Origin: Candidatus Dadabacteria bacterium
Lineage (GTDB): Bacteria > Desulfobacterota_D > UBA1144 > Nemesobacterales > JADFKM01
Direction of reading: 5' to 3'
Assembly: GCA_022564935.1 (NCBI GenBank)
Contig: JADFKM010000029.1
Coordinates: 1-25,267, forward strand
Length of the DNA: 25,267 nucleotides
Shown here: positions 2,369 through 11,873 of the stretch, piece by piece
Numbering within the stretch: the first letter of the stretch is position 1
Layout of the letters: each line of letters opens with the position of its first letter
Position numbers and translations under genes: made by a program
Notes under the pieces: model-generated
Databases searched by the model: none
What the model saw: the letters and a program-made list of their open reading frames with translations, nothing else
Told to the model about the DNA's origin: nothing

Positions 2369-2765
2369 GGATGGATTTCAAAAATAATACCGATGTAAAT
2401 TAGCTGCACATGGGTTAATTTATGGTTTGTATTTCCCTATTTACAGCCAAAACCATCAGCCAACAAATCATTAATATACATGACATGACATTTCATACAC
2501 CCCCCTCGGTAGTGTCCCCCTCAAAACGGCACTATAGTTATATAAGTTGGGAAGTGAAAAAATCGTTTATTAATTTTAGTAATGGCACAGGAGCAACCAT
2601 GCGCGGTCGATATACGTCATAATTCGCAGAGCGTCATGAACGCGCACTCCGACTTATTTTATATAGCCGACCGTTCATCCTAATCGCTATAATGGTGTTA
2701 CACTATTATAAGATAATTTGTCCTCTAAACTTTCACCAGGGGCTTATATGTTAAGGAGGTGGAGC
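2369..2765 (+). other. AT-rich intergenic region downstream of nuoD, with probable promoter of the secreted protein gene
   Basis: No convincing gene is seen in about 400 bases. The base composition falls sharply compared with nuoD. A perfect TATAAT lies at 2688-2693, about 75 bases before the next start codon, but no good -35 box lies 16-18 bases upstream, so the promoter is only probable. A 66-codon frame at 2422-2622 has no ribosome-binding site and no recognisable composition. No clear rho-independent terminator follows nuoD. Confidence 0.4.
2753..2760 (+). promoter_or_regulatory. Strong Shine-Dalgarno site that decides the start at 2766
   Basis: AAGGAGGT is a near-perfect anti-16S match five bases before ATG 2766. 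The frame is open upstream to a TTG at 2718 and an ATG at 2748, but choosing 2766 puts a textbook signal peptide at the N-terminus. Confidence 0.8.
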
Positions 2766-3422
2766 ATGAGAAGTTTCCTAACAGCAATTCTAATTTTATC
2801 GATCTGCCTGTTCTTCGTGCCCGGCGCTTTCGCAAAGGGAAAAGGTAAATCCGCTGACGCTCCTCACGGTAAACCCGCTTATGCGCCTCATGGAAAATCC
2901 CCTGCCGGGCCGAAGGGGAAAGAAACGGCGCCCGGATACCAGCTGTACCGAGTCGGGCAGCCCCTTCATCCCGGCAAGCACGGCTCTAATCCGAAATGCG
3001 ACCCCTCTTTTGACGGCCTGTACTCAGACCTTATCATGCATTTCACAGTGCCATACGACAACCAAAAGCACGGAAACTGCAAGAACAAGGGCCGGTCCTC
3101 GCTATCCTCGTATCAGGGGTTCTCTGACCTCCCGGAGGGATATTGGACTTATTCACACCCCCACTGGTACATATGGGGCAAAAGATCCGGCGATGACAAA
3201 AAAACTTCCTTCAAAGCTCCCAAGTACTGCGATCCGACGATGGGCGGCAAGTACTCAAGCCTCCTGTTCAAGCTCGCGGTGCCGGGAGACCGCGACGAAT
3301 ACGGAAGCTGCAAAGACAAAGGCACGCAGTCACTCCTATCCTACAGGGGAATCCTTAACCTGCCCGGCGGGCACTGGACATACTCCTACCCCTACTGGTA
3401 CATATGGGGTGTCAGACGGTAG
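2766..3422 (+). CDS. Secreted protein of unknown function with two tandem Cys/Trp domains
   Basis: I do not recognise this family. The 218-residue product starts with a signal peptide (residues 1-23, cleavage after AFA), followed by a basic Gly/Lys/His/Pro-rich linker with repeated APHGK units (about 24-57). It then has two copies of a roughly 63-residue domain. Domain 1 (78-140) and domain 2 (155-217) align without gaps at an exact offset of 77 residues, with 34 of 63 positions identical by my count. Each has two cysteines 27 residues apart (C78/C105 and C155/C182), which could form a disulfide, and each ends in WTYS.P.WYIWG. The product is probably periplasmic or extracellular. The gene stands alone between AT-rich spacers, downstream of nuoD and convergent with lolA. 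A carbohydrate or ligand-binding role is possible from the exposed aromatics, but that is a guess. Confidence 0.8.
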   Translation: MRSFLTAILILSICLFFVPGAFAKGKGKSADAPHGKPAYAPHGKSPAGPKGKETAPGYQLYRVGQPLHPGKHGSNPKCDPSFDGLYSDLIMHFTVPYDNQKHGNCKNKGRSSLSSYQGFSDLPEGYWTYSHPHWYIWGKRSGDDKKTSFKAPKYCDPTMGGKYSSLLFKLAVPGDRDEYGSCKDKGTQSLLSYRGILNLPGGHWTYSYPYWYIWGVRR

Positions 3423-7241: not shown

Positions 7242-8183
7242 GTGAACAAATGTCCTATATGTAGATCATCGGCTACATGCACCATGATGAAGCAAGAGCA
7301 TAAATACACAATAGTATGTGAAAGGTGCGGCGATTACTACATATCAGAGATTGCGTCCAATTATCAAGATTTCAAGTCATTAAATAAACGACAAATCGCA
7401 AATGCATCAGGGTGGATAAGAGAAAATCAAGAATTTGAAATAATCTCTACTAAAATCGACTTTCTAAAGACACTGCCAACACCTTCTATACCGGAAAAGG
7501 CCGAGAAATTACTTTTATATGTATCAAAAGAATTTCCATATCCGGGATATGTTTTCACTTTTTTAGACGATGGAGGAAAGTCCAAACCATTATATTTTGC
7601 AATTAGTTGGTCTTATGATGCCTCTGATTGTAGATATATTTATTATGACTACCTATTCAACGAGAAGAAATTTCTTTCATATTATGATGCACCGACCGAA
7701 GGATATAAAATATCGCCTTCTGGTTGGGCATATATAGATGAACTTAAAAGGATAAATCCAAAAAGCCAACAAGCATTTGTGGCGATGTGGTTTGATCAAA
7801 AGTTGGACAATGCATACTCAGAAGCTATAAGGCCAGGGATTGTAGATGCAGGATACAAACCACTTCGAATAGACAAGCACGAACATATAAACAAAATCGA
7901 CGACGAAATCATTGCTCAAATAAGACGAAGCAAGTTTATAGTCTCGGATTTTACCGGACAAAGAGGCGGTGTTTATTTTGAGGCTGGCTATGCACTCGGT
8001 TTGGGATTGCCAGTAATCTGGTTATGCGAAGAAATCGAACTTGAAAAAATTCATTTCGATAATAGACAGTACAATTTTTTGCCTTGGGAACATGATAACT
8101 TACCGGAATTAAGAGAAAAATTGCAGTTCAGGATTGAAGCAACTATTGGACGTGGCGATTACACGGAGAATAAAAGCTCATAA
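7242..8183 (+). CDS. Zinc-ribbon protein with C-terminal nucleoside deoxyribosyltransferase/TIR-like domain
   Basis: The 313-residue product has an N-terminal zinc ribbon (C4, C7, C26, C29: CPIC and CERCG), a middle region of about 140 residues ending in a winged-helix-like SPSGWAYIDEL, and a C-terminal domain from about 176. That domain shows AFVAMWFD, RIDKHEH, IAQIRRSKFIVSDFTG and GGVYFEAGYALGLGLPVI. This is the Rossmann-like pattern of nucleoside 2-deoxyribosyltransferase relatives, a group related to TIR domains and common in bacterial conflict loci; E247 aligns with the family's catalytic Glu. The likely activity is cleavage of a base-sugar bond in a nucleotide or NAD-like substrate, but this is inferred. 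GTG 7242 is used because GGGGGA lies about 9 bases upstream. The gene is AT-rich, unlike ftsK, and faces the SIR2-like gene. Confidence 0.75.
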   Translation: MNKCPICRSSATCTMMKQEHKYTIVCERCGDYYISEIASNYQDFKSLNKRQIANASGWIRENQEFEIISTKIDFLKTLPTPSIPEKAEKLLLYVSKEFPYPGYVFTFLDDGGKSKPLYFAISWSYDASDCRYIYYDYLFNEKKFLSYYDAPTEGYKISPSGWAYIDELKRINPKSQQAFVAMWFDQKLDNAYSEAIRPGIVDAGYKPLRIDKHEHINKIDDEIIAQIRRSKFIVSDFTGQRGGVYFEAGYALGLGLPVIWLCEEIELEKIHFDNRQYNFLPWEHDNLPELREKLQFRIEATIGRGDYTENKSS

Positions 8184-8362: not shown

Positions 8363-9415
8363 TCAACTAATTGTCTGAACGAGACTATAAGAATTGAAGA
8401 ACTCATCAATGTATTCTCTACCAAATGGTTTGAAAAAGGTGTCGAATTTACCTTTGGGCAAGCCATGCTTTACGTCTTTATCCTTATTCCATATTAAAAG
8501 TTTCAAGTTTTTATTGGTATTTAGAGCTTGCTTGAAAATATCATTTATACCTTCATCTCTAAATGAAAACCCAATTACTATACAGTATTCAACCTCTTTC
8601 AAAGTTTCTTTAAGGTTATTGTAAAGTTCATTAAATGGAAATTCATTAAAGTTTTTCCCACCAGGAAACAGCATAGGATGGTATTCAAGATCTGTTAGGT
8701 CTGGAATATTCACAAGATATATCTTTCCTTTATTTTTAGGGTTTCGTTTCCAATTTAATGATCCATGCAGTTTGTGTAGATGAAATTTGTTTCCGTCTTT
8801 ATGAAACATCTGATTATTAAAAATGTAACCACTTTGTTTGGGCTCAAATCCAACATTTAATTGCCCATCAAGAGTGTCGTCATTCCAAAAAGTATTTTCT
8901 ATACATAGATCATAATTTGTAGTAAATATATCAAGGGGCTTCGAAAATAGTAAAAGAAATTTTTTGTATGCTTCTCTATAGTCTTCTTCAGATTCATCTG
9001 GGTCTTTCCAGTATGTATCATAAATAATTGTATAAATTATTTTCTTTAATCCTTGTATTGACCGTCTATCATCAACCAAACGTTCTTCTAACTTCATTTT
9101 ATTGGATGAAGTTAATTTATTGATTATACAATCGTAATTATTAAGTATTAAGTCACTATGTAGACCAACTTCATCGAAGCTGTAGGTAATCCACTTTTCG
9201 TATTTATCTAATGCTAACAGAATTTTTTCAATATCGAGTTCTATAATATCTCTATTAAGAAAGTATCTTTTTGCTGCCTCATATATTTGTCTTTGATTTG
9301 TAGTTCCCAATTCAAAATTATTAACTATTTCTATGAATTCCACCGTAGTAGGAAACCCAAATGCCCTTGATGCACCTGCTCCGAGAAAAAGACATACATC
9401 ATTCTTGTTAGACAT
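8363..9415 (-). CDS. SIR2-like (SIR2_2 type) NAD-binding protein, probable defence effector
   Basis: SIR2-fold proteins bind NAD+, and several defence systems (Thoeris ThsA, DSR1/2, SIR2-HerA, short Argonaute-SIR2) use them to deplete NAD+ and stop phage growth. This 350-residue protein shows the nucleotide-binding LFLGAGASRAFGFPT (10-23), FTTNYD with catalytic-type Asn (164-169), KLHGSLNW with the active-site-type His (215-222) and VIGFSFRDEGIND (280-292). The SIR2 domain accounts for almost the whole length, with no clear SLOG, transmembrane or HerA-type partner, so it is not canonical Thoeris. It is AT-rich, converges on the NDT-like gene across about 180 bp, and starts almost at its own predicted transcription start. 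Confidence 0.82.
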   Translation of the reverse strand: MSNKNDVCLFLGAGASRAFGFPTTVEFIEIVNNFELGTTNQRQIYEAAKRYFLNRDIIELDIEKILLALDKYEKWITYSFDEVGLHSDLILNNYDCIINKLTSSNKMKLEERLVDDRRSIQGLKKIIYTIIYDTYWKDPDESEEDYREAYKKFLLLFSKPLDIFTTNYDLCIENTFWNDDTLDGQLNVGFEPKQSGYIFNNQMFHKDGNKFHLHKLHGSLNWKRNPKNKGKIYLVNIPDLTDLEYHPMLFPGGKNFNEFPFNELYNNLKETLKEVEYCIVIGFSFRDEGINDIFKQALNTNKNLKLLIWNKDKDVKHGLPKGKFDTFFKPFGREYIDEFFNSYSLVQTIS

Positions 9416-9452: not shown

Positions 9453-9834
9453 CACCAGGAAGGATTATAAATGCACAAAACTACTCATCAGCCCAACGTA
9501 GATGCAAAAAGCCACTTACTCCTGCCTCCCCCATGACTTCGTAGAGGCTATTGCCATCCTCGATGATTCGGCGCTCCATGCCCGGCCTTTACGCCCCGCA
9601 CCCGCAATCCTAGACCCAAGCGAACCGGTATTCTTCGTCACAGGGCTGTGATACATCGAATCCGCTCTAAAGCGACAGGTTACGATAATTGTTACACATC
9701 CGAGACAACCGAACATATTAGTGTCTCAAATAACTGTCTCAATTGCTTGCTTATTGTCTCAACATCTCACATACCATTCACTACCGCTAAATGATTACAC
9801 AACAATTACAGGCAGTTAGGTAGCAGCATTGAAC
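9453..9834 (+). other. Intergenic region between the SIR2-like gene and the first sigma-54 promoter
   Basis: No gene is supported. Bases 9500-9660 are GC-richer than the island and carry short frames on the minus strand without ribosome-binding sites; they may be decayed coding sequence. From 9700 the sequence holds the TGTCTCA repeat cluster annotated separately. Confidence 0.4.
9702..9761 (+). promoter_or_regulatory. TGTCTCA repeat cluster, candidate enhancer-binding-protein site
   Basis: TGTCTCA occurs three times in direct orientation at 9722-9728, 9735-9741 and 9755-9761. The inverted half GAGACA sits at 9702-9707. The cluster lies about 75-135 bp upstream of the sigma-54 promoter at 9835, the distance at which NtrC-type activators usually bind. 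That these are activator sites is an inference from repetition and position. No activator gene is in the window. Confidence 0.45.
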
Positions 9835-9850
9835 TGGCACAGCATTTGCA
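9835..9850 (+). promoter_or_regulatory. Sigma-54 (RpoN) promoter, -24/-12 type, of small coiled-coil gene 1
   Basis: TGGCACAGCATTTGCA matches the sigma-54 consensus TGGCAC-N5-TTGCA exactly, with the invariant GG and GC ten bases apart. Transcription should start near 9861, about 74 bases before the TTG start of the coiled-coil gene. Confidence 0.78.
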
Positions 9851-9934
9851 TTTGTATAGTTTGCTCTTATATAAATCGAGTCACACGATCAACCGGAAAG
9901 CGTAAGCAGCAAAATACGAATTGGAGGAAAGAAA

Positions 9935-10093
9935 TTGGACGAATCACAGTTGATAAAAAAGGTTGTTGACATTGACGCAAGACTCTCCATGGCGGAAATA
10001 GAGATCAGAAACTTAACCGAAAAGATCAATAAACTTGAAGATTATATCAAGAGCAAATTTGTTGTTGAAGGCGCGTTCTCGGGAGATGATTGA
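9935..10093 (+). CDS. Small coiled-coil protein 1, sigma-54 controlled, function unknown
   Basis: This 52-residue protein is not a family I recognise. It starts at TTG 9935, preceded by GGAGGAAAG at a good distance. Residues 5-40 form an amphipathic, charged heptad pattern (VVDIDARLSMAEIEIRN, then LTEKINKLEDYIKSK), a likely short coiled coil. There is no signal peptide, membrane segment or cysteine. It resembles the protein at 11646: both carry S-x-L, then D-[IL]-D-x-R-L and E-x-x-I-R in register, with 9 of 23 positions identical by my count, and both follow sigma-54 promoters. A regulatory, adaptor or oligomerising role is possible, but nothing in the sequence fixes it. A 10-bp inverted repeat begins 16 bases after the stop. 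Confidence 0.65.
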   Translation: MDESQLIKKVVDIDARLSMAEIEIRNLTEKINKLEDYIKSKFVVEGAFSGDD

Positions 10094-10108
10094 ACCGATG
10101 GTAGCTGA

Positions 10109-10157
10109 TTTATCCCTCTCATGCCACAAAGCCAATGCCCTAAACCTGAGGGATAAA
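10109..10157 (+). repeat. 10-bp inverted repeat downstream of coiled-coil gene 1
   Basis: TTTATCCCTC (10109-10118) and GAGGGATAAA (10148-10157) are perfect complements separated by 29 bases, starting 16 bases after the stop codon. The transcript could fold into a long stem-loop. There is no T-run after it, so it is not a standard terminator; it may be an mRNA 3' stabiliser or a protein site. Confidence 0.5.
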
Positions 10158-10276
10158 GATGCGGCTCCCACCAAAATTCCTTCCCAAAAAAGCTCCAGAC
10201 TAAGTGTATGTATGTTTTCCTTAGCTCTGCAAGCCGCCATTAGCCCATCGGCAAGAGCAGCGCCCTTCTACCCACC

Positions 10277-10301
10277 TGCAAAGAGCCGGGCTTTGCAGCC
10301 C
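10277..10301. terminator. Hairpin between coiled-coil gene 1 and the convergent aldo/keto reductase
   Basis: TGCAAAG (10277-10283) pairs with CTTTGCA (10291-10297); an alternative pairing is GGGCT (10288-10292) with AGCCC (10297-10301). It lies 13 bases beyond the stop of the minus-strand aldo/keto reductase gene. No T-run is present on either strand, so termination is only a suggestion. Confidence 0.25.
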
Positions 10302-10313
10302 TCCCGGTAATCA

Positions 10314-11120
10314 CTAAAGGGGAAATGCATCGTTGAGAATCTTAATCTGAGCGTCGCTCAGGCGCCATCCAGAAGCCTCGCAGTTCTCCTCCGTGCGCTC
10401 TGTGGAGTTTGACTTCGGGATTACGATCACATTCGGACTGGCGGTGCACCAGTTAAGGGCAACCTGCGCCGGGGTCTTTCCCGTCTCTGAGGCAATCCGC
10501 TCAAGAGCCTTCATCCCGCGGCCCTTGAGGAATCTCGACCCCGCGGCTAGGCTGCCGTCGTCAAGGGGTGTGTAGGCCATCACCGTGATTCCGTGCTCCT
10601 CGCAGTAAGGAAGCAGCTCGATCTCAATCTCCCGCCTCTTAAGGTTATAAAGCATCTGGTTCGACACAATAGGGTGATGTCTCATCAAGGCCAGAGCCTC
10701 TTGTAGCTCGGCGATGGAGAAGTTGCTTACGCCTATGAACTTGACCAGCCCGCGGTCGGCAAGCTCCTCCATGGCGTGCATTGTCTCAGAAATCGGATAT
10801 ACGGGATTCGGCCAGTGAACCTGGTACAGGTCTATGCAATCGACCCCTAGCCTAAGGAGGCTGTCTTCGGCGGCACGTAATACAGCGTCGTAAGATAGAT
10901 GCCGTCCTGAGACCTTCGTCGCGATAAACGCCCGGTCGGGGATTCCGCTTATGGCCTCGCCCACTATGTCCTCGGTGTTGTAGCCCTCGGCGGTGTCGAT
11001 GAGGAACGCCCCAAGCTCAATCCCCCGGCGAAGGGGCTCCACACCTCCGCTGTAGCGCCAAGTGCCGAGCCCAATTTCTGGTACTATAGCATCGGTGCTT
11101 CCTAGCCGTTTCATTTCCAT
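10314..11120 (-). CDS. Aldo/keto reductase
   Basis: This is an NADPH-dependent cytoplasmic carbonyl reductase of the (beta/alpha)8 aldo/keto reductase superfamily. The 268-residue product contains the full catalytic tetrad: D42 and Y47 in IDTAEGYNTED, K69 in IATKVSGRH and H102 in LYQVHWPNP. The cofactor-binding pattern IPKSNSTERTEEN near the C-terminus matches the family signature 'IPKS....ri..N'. Length is typical of the short prokaryotic 2,5-diketogluconate-reductase-like members. Substrate cannot be told from sequence. ATG 11120 has a purine-rich GAGAGCAG just upstream; a second ATG two codons later is also possible. It sits alone between the two sigma-54 coiled-coil genes, on the opposite strand. 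Confidence 0.93.
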   Translation of the reverse strand: MEMKRLGSTDAIVPEIGLGTWRYSGGVEPLRRGIELGAFLIDTAEGYNTEDIVGEAISGIPDRAFIATKVSGRHLSYDAVLRAAEDSLLRLGVDCIDLYQVHWPNPVYPISETMHAMEELADRGLVKFIGVSNFSIAELQEALALMRHHPIVSNQMLYNLKRREIEIELLPYCEEHGITVMAYTPLDDGSLAAGSRFLKGRGMKALERIASETGKTPAQVALNWCTASPNVIVIPKSNSTERTEENCEASGWRLSDAQIKILNDAFPL

Positions 11121-11281
11121 CTGCTCTCGCCCCGCCCATAGCCCTGCCGAAGTATTATGCCCCCTCAGCTACAATTACCTCCTCACCCTCATTACTCATA
11201 TTAAACCTACTAACTATCTTTATAGAGATAAGTTTAAGATTTGCATACCGTTCATCAGAGATTTCCATTAATCCTCCATAT

Positions 11282-11301
11282 GGTGTCACCTAAGTGACAC
11301 C
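11282..11301. repeat. 8-bp perfect palindrome GGTGTCAC-N4-GTGACACC
   Basis: Both 8-bp arms are exact complements around a 4-base spacer, giving a 20-bp dyad typical of a dimeric regulator site. It lies about 160 bp upstream of the aldo/keto reductase start and about 275 bp upstream of the second sigma-54 promoter, so it could serve either. Confidence 0.6.
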
Positions 11302-11316
11302 TTTGGACTCTGGCAC

Positions 11317-11334
11317 CTCTGTATTTTAACAGAG
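11317..11334. repeat. 6-bp inverted repeat CTCTGT-N6-ACAGAG
   Basis: A perfect 6-bp dyad lies 15 bp beyond the palindrome at 11282-11301. Taken alone it is near chance level, but it is part of a series of four inverted repeats in 170 bp. Confidence 0.35.
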
Positions 11335-11358
11335 AGATACAGTTCTTCTAGTCCTGTC

Positions 11359-11378
11359 TTTTCTCCTAGCAGAGAAAA
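11359..11378. repeat. 7-bp inverted repeat TTTTCTC-N6-GAGAAAA
   Basis: Both arms are perfect complements around CTAGCA. It is the third dyad in the series upstream of the second sigma-54 promoter. Confidence 0.4.
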
Positions 11379-11425
11379 CATACCCCTCTTCTCTATATCA
11401 CAGCGGGCGATTATTACTGAACTGT

Positions 11426-11449
11426 GGTGTCTGGGAAACAAAAGACACC
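11426..11449. repeat. 7-bp inverted repeat GGTGTCT-N10-AGACACC
   Basis: The arms share GGTGTC with the palindrome at 11282 and TGTCT with the TGTCTCA repeats upstream of the first sigma-54 promoter. It lies about 130-150 bp upstream of the second sigma-54 promoter, a usual distance for an NtrC-type activator site. A common activator for both small genes is an inference. Confidence 0.45.
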
Positions 11450-11575
11450 TAACGCAGACGGCACGGCAAATTGTATGGGTGGGAGCGTCATAATGTCTGT
11501 ATTTCTTACACATACATATTCCGGCATGTTAGCAATATAACAACGTTTACCGGAGGTTAGGAGAATATCATGGGC

Positions 11576-11591
11576 TGGCACAACACTTGTG
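11576..11591 (+). promoter_or_regulatory. Sigma-54 (RpoN) promoter of small coiled-coil gene 2
   Basis: TGGCACAACACTTGTG keeps the full -24 TGGCAC and the -12 TTG at the right spacing, but has GT instead of GC at -12, so it is weaker than the one at 9835. Both promoters are followed by TTTGTATA (9851-9858 and 11599-11606). The transcript should start near 11602, about 44 bases before ATG 11646. Confidence 0.62.
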
Positions 11592-11645
11592 AATATTGTT
11601 TGTATAAATTGGTCGGCGACATATATAATGTCAGGAGGCAGGACA

Positions 11646-11873
11646 ATGAAGTTATCGCATTTAGTCCTTGAGCTGGAAGACCTTGACAGAAGGCTCAACA
11701 AAATAGAAGAGAAGATAAGGAAATGCAAAACGTTCCTACGCAACAAGCAGATTGCCGAGAGCTCCGTACCGTCAAAGGAGGGAGAAAAAGCGGCTCCGTT
11801 GTCAATCACCTCCGATGGTCCGGAACACTCTCGACAAATTGATACGTCCTCTAAAATGCCTCGCGGGCATTGA
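11646..11873 (+). CDS. Small coiled-coil protein 2, sigma-54 controlled, paralogue of the one at 9935
   Basis: This 75-residue protein is not a family I recognise. ATG 11646 follows AGGAGG at 11633-11638; an in-frame TTG at 11589 is rejected because it falls inside the sigma-54 -12 element. Residues 4-38 form a charged amphipathic helix (LVLELEDLDRRLNKIEEKIR), a likely coiled coil; the remaining 37 residues are polar and probably disordered. The helix aligns without gaps with the protein at 9935 (shared S-x-L, D-[IL]-D-x-R-L, E-x-x-I-R). No membrane segment or signal peptide. The longer C-terminal tail is the main difference. It probably works in the same pathway under the same activator; the function is unknown. 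Confidence 0.62.
   Translation: MKLSHLVLELEDLDRRLNKIEEKIRKCKTFLRNKQIAESSVPSKEGEKAAPLSITSDGPEHSRQIDTSSKMPRGH
11855..11871 (+). terminator. Possible terminator hairpin at the end of coiled-coil gene 2
   Basis: AATGCC (11855-11860) and GGCATT (11866-11871) pair across a 5-base loop and overlap the last codons of the gene. The following GAGTTTGTTTG is only moderately T-rich, so this is a weak candidate. Confidence 0.3.

Follow-up and report, generated by a model that had tools for sequence, protein, structure and literature searches.

Two short helical-protein genes behind sigma-54-type promoters in a Candidatus Dadabacteria genome and their candidate regulon

Two neighbouring loci of a Candidatus Dadabacteria bacterium probably belong to a small activator-driven sigma-54 regulon that makes orphan single-helix proteins, a reading to which we give a probability of roughly 60%. 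The stretch of DNA analysed (the window; contig JADFKM010000029.1 of assembly GCA_022564935.1, 25,267 nt) carries at each of these loci a sigma-54-type promoter, TGTCT-type elements upstream of it and a short reading frame downstream, and a third promoter with a like arrangement of upstream repeats was found on another contig of the same genome (C27).

Promoter sites and their upstream elements

The initial annotation had placed a sigma-54 promoter before each of the two small genes, and both strings are present on the + strand. Promoter 1 (9835–9850, TGGCACAGCATTTGCA) is a perfect TGGCAC-N5-TTGC at −24/−12, while promoter 2 (11576–11591, TGGCACAACACTTGTG) has one departure, TTGT instead of TTGC at −12. 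This departure is probably tolerated in sigma-54 promoters, because TTGT at −12 also occurs in the Salmonella pspA and pspG promoters and hydN has GTGT (PMC3844500). In the window alone, the two loose sigma-54 matches are at the level of shuffled sequence (mean 1.5), and the window by itself therefore gives no basis for judging them. A scoring matrix derived from 29 Salmonella sigma-54 sites (PMC3844500) was applied to both strands of 1.018 Mb, about half of the 1.99-Mb genome, covering about 2 million positions. With this Salmonella-based matrix, used here on a Dadabacteria-type genome, promoter 1 ranks first and promoter 2 ranks 21st, the latter being a moderate position only. The search for further TGGCAC-N5-TTGC sites that had been proposed returned nine perfect sites in the 1.99-Mb genome, versus two for the reversed control pattern. 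Other perfect sites precede genes with putative names read from sequence, namely RpoS-like, phosphate-type transporter, porin-like and multihaem cytochrome-like genes. A sigma-70 promoter reading was rejected, the + strand carrying no qualifying site at either start. Overall, the sequence supports the sigma-54 reading of both sites. The initial annotation had also seen TTTGTATA after both promoters; the element is present at both, but out of register, lying 16 and 23 nt from the start of TGGCAC, respectively.

The candidate enhancer of promoter 1 (9702–9762, + strand) consists of GAGACA at 9702 and TGTCTCAA at 9722, 9735 and 9755, with the three repeats starting 113, 100 and 80 nt upstream of the promoter and being the only copies of this element in the whole window. 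The third sigma-54-type promoter (C27, 20113–20127, − strand, TGGCACGCTACTTGTA) has the TTGT variant at −12 and ranks eighth in the 1.018 Mb with the Salmonella-derived matrix. It is preceded, in order, by TGTCTCA, TGTCTCAA, TGTCTCAA and TGTTTCAA; three TGTCTCA copies start 128, 115 and 104 nt before the promoter site, and here, as at promoter 1, a spacing of 13 nt separates the first repeat from the second. Clusters of at least two same-strand TGTCTCA within 45 nt were observed in only two places in 1.018 Mb, promoter 1 and C27, where 0.12 close pairs are expected, and both clusters lie about 100–130 nt upstream of a sigma-54-type site. The C27 locus is a fair confirmation of the repeats, because it was found via its promoter and not via the motif.

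At promoter 2, the candidate enhancer is a perfect inverted repeat, GGTGTCT-N10-AGACACC (11426–11449, + strand), and TGTCT half-sites also lie at 11355 and 11494. This upstream region contains four TGTCT/AGACA in about 240 nt versus 0.42 expected, though these half-sites are shorter than those of promoter 1 and C27 and arranged unlike them. At least three TGTCT half-sites within 180 nt upstream are seen at no more than three of the 40 top-scoring sigma-54 matches, namely promoters 1, 2 and C27, and a shared 5-mer with counts of four and four was obtained in 2 of 300 shuffles of the upstream regions of both window promoters; the half-site motif behind these figures was chosen after looking, that is, noticed first and tested second. 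Sigma-54 enhancers usually lie at a distance of 70–150 bp (PMC3844500), and the TGTCT(CAA) elements of all three promoters fall at this expected distance, suggesting that they are candidate activator-binding sites. Literature searches for TGTCTCAA together with RpoN gave unrelated matches only. The product of the gene downstream of the C27 promoter is 160 aa long, begins like a lipoprotein, contains an HEFAH motif and has no Pfam match. A possible weak further member is located at C99:17635–17649 (+ strand, TGGCACATCTTTTGA), which has TGTCT/AGACA half-sites upstream and a response-regulator receiver gene directly downstream.

The two window loci also share a 22-nt box, located at 9799–9820 (ACAACAATTACAGGCAGTTAGG) and 11540–11561 (ACAACGTTTACCGGAGGTTAGG) on the + strand, whose pattern is ACAAC-N2-TTAC-N-GG-N2-GTTAGG; in both copies, 14 nt separate the end of the box from TGGCAC. 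Elsewhere in the genome, there is no perfect match to this box and no further copy above chance was found, and allowing up to three mismatches did not turn up the combination of box and promoter at any other place; the C27 promoter lacks the box. The upstream regions of the two genes align beyond the promoters, with a local alignment score of 18 versus 9.6 ± 1.4 for shuffles (p 0.0005).

The small genes and their relationship

Both reading frames and both ribosome-binding sites of the initial annotation were confirmed on the + strand. Small gene 1 (9935–10093) has a TTG start behind the Shine-Dalgarno sequence GGAGGAAAG and encodes 52 aa, and small gene 2 (11646–11873) has an ATG start behind AGGAGG and encodes 75 aa, with a terminator-like hairpin (11855–11871, + strand) overlapping its 3′ end; terminator-like sites are not enriched in the window (3 versus 3.2 expected from shuffles). 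The codon usage of the first frame is gene-like (0.27 bits per codon), while that of the second is neutral (−0.03 bits per codon). AlphaFold2 predicted a single confident helix for protein 1 (residues 3–48, pLDDT 88.9), and for protein 2 a helix at residues 3–39 followed by a low-confidence disordered tail (pLDDT 80.4).

The view that no described family fits these proteins was borne out for both in Pfam, NCBIfam, PHROGs and PADLOC. Homologues were found neither in viral contigs, phages (protein 1) and plasmids (protein 2) nor by sequence search in 100 genomes; protein 1 gave only weak S15 helix matches in the PDB, and a profile search of 57 genomes of the class convincingly recovered only the two window proteins. 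Conservation of the frames in related genomes, which the initial annotation had named as a test of its reading, was therefore not seen, a result that is not decisive and counts as weak evidence because the relatives searched all lie outside the same family. The further copies of the D-[IL]-D-x-R-L coil that it had anticipated did not appear either, and the third regulon member is lipoprotein-like and not a coil. The aldo/keto reductase gene between the small genes did not serve to locate them by synteny: three Dadabacteria-type relatives were found to carry the reductase, but not the small genes.

Other genes of the window were also recorded. Next to small gene 1, in DNA of low GC content (0.34), lie two genes of defence type: the first (7242–8183, + strand) has a TIR-like effector domain (PADLOC E 5e-13), and the second (8363–9415, − strand) codes for a SIR2 protein resembling the SIR2 of a short Argonaute system (E 2e-27). 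In addition, positions 2718–3422 (+ strand) encode a secreted-looking protein of 234 aa with two WTYS-[HY]-P-x-W-YIWG repeats and no Pfam match.

The residues that had been reported as shared between the two small proteins are indeed identical in an ungapped, start-anchored register, amounting to ten within the first 25 (M1, S4, L6, D12, D14, R16, L17, E21, I24 and R25). Anchored at the start, the similarity has p 0.0007–0.002 against shuffles that preserve the hydrophobic or charge patterns, with 0.002 where both are preserved, and was reached in 0 of 1500 simple shuffles. In any register, p rises from 0.0007 with simple shuffles to 0.018 with the hydrophobic pattern kept and to 0.17 when the charge pattern is preserved too, and BLASTP between the two proteins reported no similarity. 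Identities by codon position over the 25 codons number 13, 17 and 10, which leans to selection on the protein. Paralogy, as claimed in the initial annotation, thus gains from the start-anchored similarity and the unique 22-nt box and loses from the blank BLASTP and the any-register values; on these sequence comparisons, the two genes are likely, but not proven, to be paralogues. Probably a single unit of promoter plus gene was duplicated, since both loci retain the unique box, the promoter and residues 1–25 of the protein; this is the simplest reading rather than a proven one. That the two form a paralogous family of adaptors is plausible and likewise not proven.

Sigma-54 machinery and the closest known systems

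The absence of rpoN had been named as grounds for abandoning the promoter reading. The DNA-binding and core-binding Pfam domains of RpoN were indeed not found in the assembly, which is 88.6% complete; the result is not decisive in an incomplete assembly whose activators are all intact but one. Of 60 genomes searched, almost all from relatives within the same class, 55 have RpoN; two near-complete relatives, both members of a single family within the order, lack it as well. In the one relative examined, hpf adjoins rpoN; here, hpf lies mid-contig in a different gene context, so a contig end at hpf cannot explain the gap. We take RpoN to be present in the organism and unassembled, with its loss as a possibility. 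Activator domains with the GAFTGA-type loop, the part of these proteins that contacts sigma-54, are encoded at seven loci, of which six are intact and one is frameshifted. At C30:14279–14777 (+ strand), a sigma-54 activator domain is split by a frameshift or by an assembly error.

A sigma-54 site precedes the RpoS-like gene both in this genome (C56:11797–11811, − strand) and in three Dadabacteria-type relatives (L085:3635, L086:3033 and L087:2726), the sigma-70 domains of the RpoS-like gene being confirmed in one of the three. By analogy, this arrangement suggests a cascade from RpoN to the RpoS-like factor; an RpoN-RpoS cascade is known in Borrelia. Three tandem sigma-54 sites were also observed within 72 nt at C85:36015–36086 (− strand), two of them ranked second and third in the half of the genome that was scored; no gene is apparent immediately after them.

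Sigma-54 regulons that have an enhancer of their own are a known kind of system; the small proteins described here are orphans. The GlrR/QseF-GlmY regulon of Enterobacteriaceae resembles the one proposed here in that TGTC half-sites precede sigma-54 promoters of the TGGCAC type and in its small-gene outputs, and its outputs include envelope functions. In enteric bacteria, the site bound by GlrR/QseF is TGTC-N10-GACA (PMC8745638), whereas the arrangement is TGTC-N12-GACA at promoter 2 and direct repeats at promoter 1 and C27, and the output there is a small RNA and here a predicted small protein; membership in that regulon was therefore rejected and the resemblance kept as a likeness only. The PspF-controlled pspA and pspG genes likewise have sigma-54 promoters with TTGT at −12, and PspA is a helical coiled-coil protein; the products here differ in being 52 and 75 aa long and have no similarity to Psp in Pfam or NCBIfam. 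Short coiled-coil families such as SlyX and XhlA share the short length, the single helix and the heptad-like pattern, but neither membership held: there was no Pfam match to SlyX at E 1, and XhlA was matched at E 0.02 with 15.5 bits against a cut-off of 34.7.

Alternative readings and meaning

In the regulon that we favour, one AAA+ enhancer-binding activator would bind the TGTCT(CAA) half-sites 80–150 nt upstream and make contact with the sigma-54 RNA polymerase poised at TGGCAC-N5-TTG[C/T], and ATP hydrolysis would open the promoter. The outputs would be the two short single-helix proteins and the C27 lipoprotein-like protein with its HEFAH motif. Judging from protein length and helix content, the helical proteins most likely form coiled-coil pairs, mutually or with a partner, and they may have an adaptor or regulatory role, as the initial annotation supposed. 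Its proposal that the two small genes are co-regulated is supported by the shared TGTCT(CAA) element, the C27 promoter of like layout and the seven GAFTGA activators.

The regulon may also be real without the small genes being paralogues, in which case unrelated short coils would have come independently under the same activator and D-x-D-x-R-L would be a coiled-coil convergence. We consider this rather unlikely: the fixed spacing of 14 nt between TGGCAC and a box confined to these two loci, the start-anchored p of 0.0007–0.002 with patterns kept and the codon-position identities (13, 17 and 10 of 25) all point to common descent, set against a blank BLASTP, an equal any-register score in 17% of the shuffles that keep hydrophobicity and charge, a third member that is not a coil and the lack of a family elsewhere to anchor the proteins. 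Where the product is concerned, an RNA is improbable, with the short frames being incidental. Small RNAs transcribed from sigma-54 promoters, glmY and glmZ among them, have been described (PMC3844500), and the neutral codon signal of the second frame would suit such a product; yet neither locus has an Rfam match, the predicted folding does not exceed that of shuffles (z −0.35 and −1.5), and both frames follow a strong Shine-Dalgarno sequence and encode confident predicted helices.

About equally improbable is that RpoN was lost in the lineage and that the sites are decaying relics of a former regulon. The missing RpoN domains here and in two near-complete relatives of the same order, an hpf that is not beside rpoN, and a frameshifted activator would fit such a loss, but six intact GAFTGA-type activators and well-kept sigma-54 sites before several genes would not, and the assembly is only 88.6% complete. 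Chance, meaning sigma-54-like strings in AT-rich intergenic DNA next to spurious short frames, is already disfavoured and now very improbable; the window by itself contains no more sites than shuffles give, whereas the genome-scale ranking, the shared box and the repeats common to a third locus go beyond it.

A small activator-driven sigma-54 regulon is therefore the reading we retain, and it is now better supported than from the window sequence alone. A more specific form of it, in which the TGTCTCAA repeats mark a regulon peculiar to the Dadabacteria-type lineage and a new, very short helical family serves a stress or envelope response together with a surface lipoprotein, is unlikely at present. 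No mention of Dadabacteria and sigma-54 together was found in the open papers searched, and the loci described amount to a specific small regulon, open to testing, in a bacterial group about which little is known. They also show that very short orphan genes, which annotation usually drops, can be recognised by their control region instead of by their own sequence.
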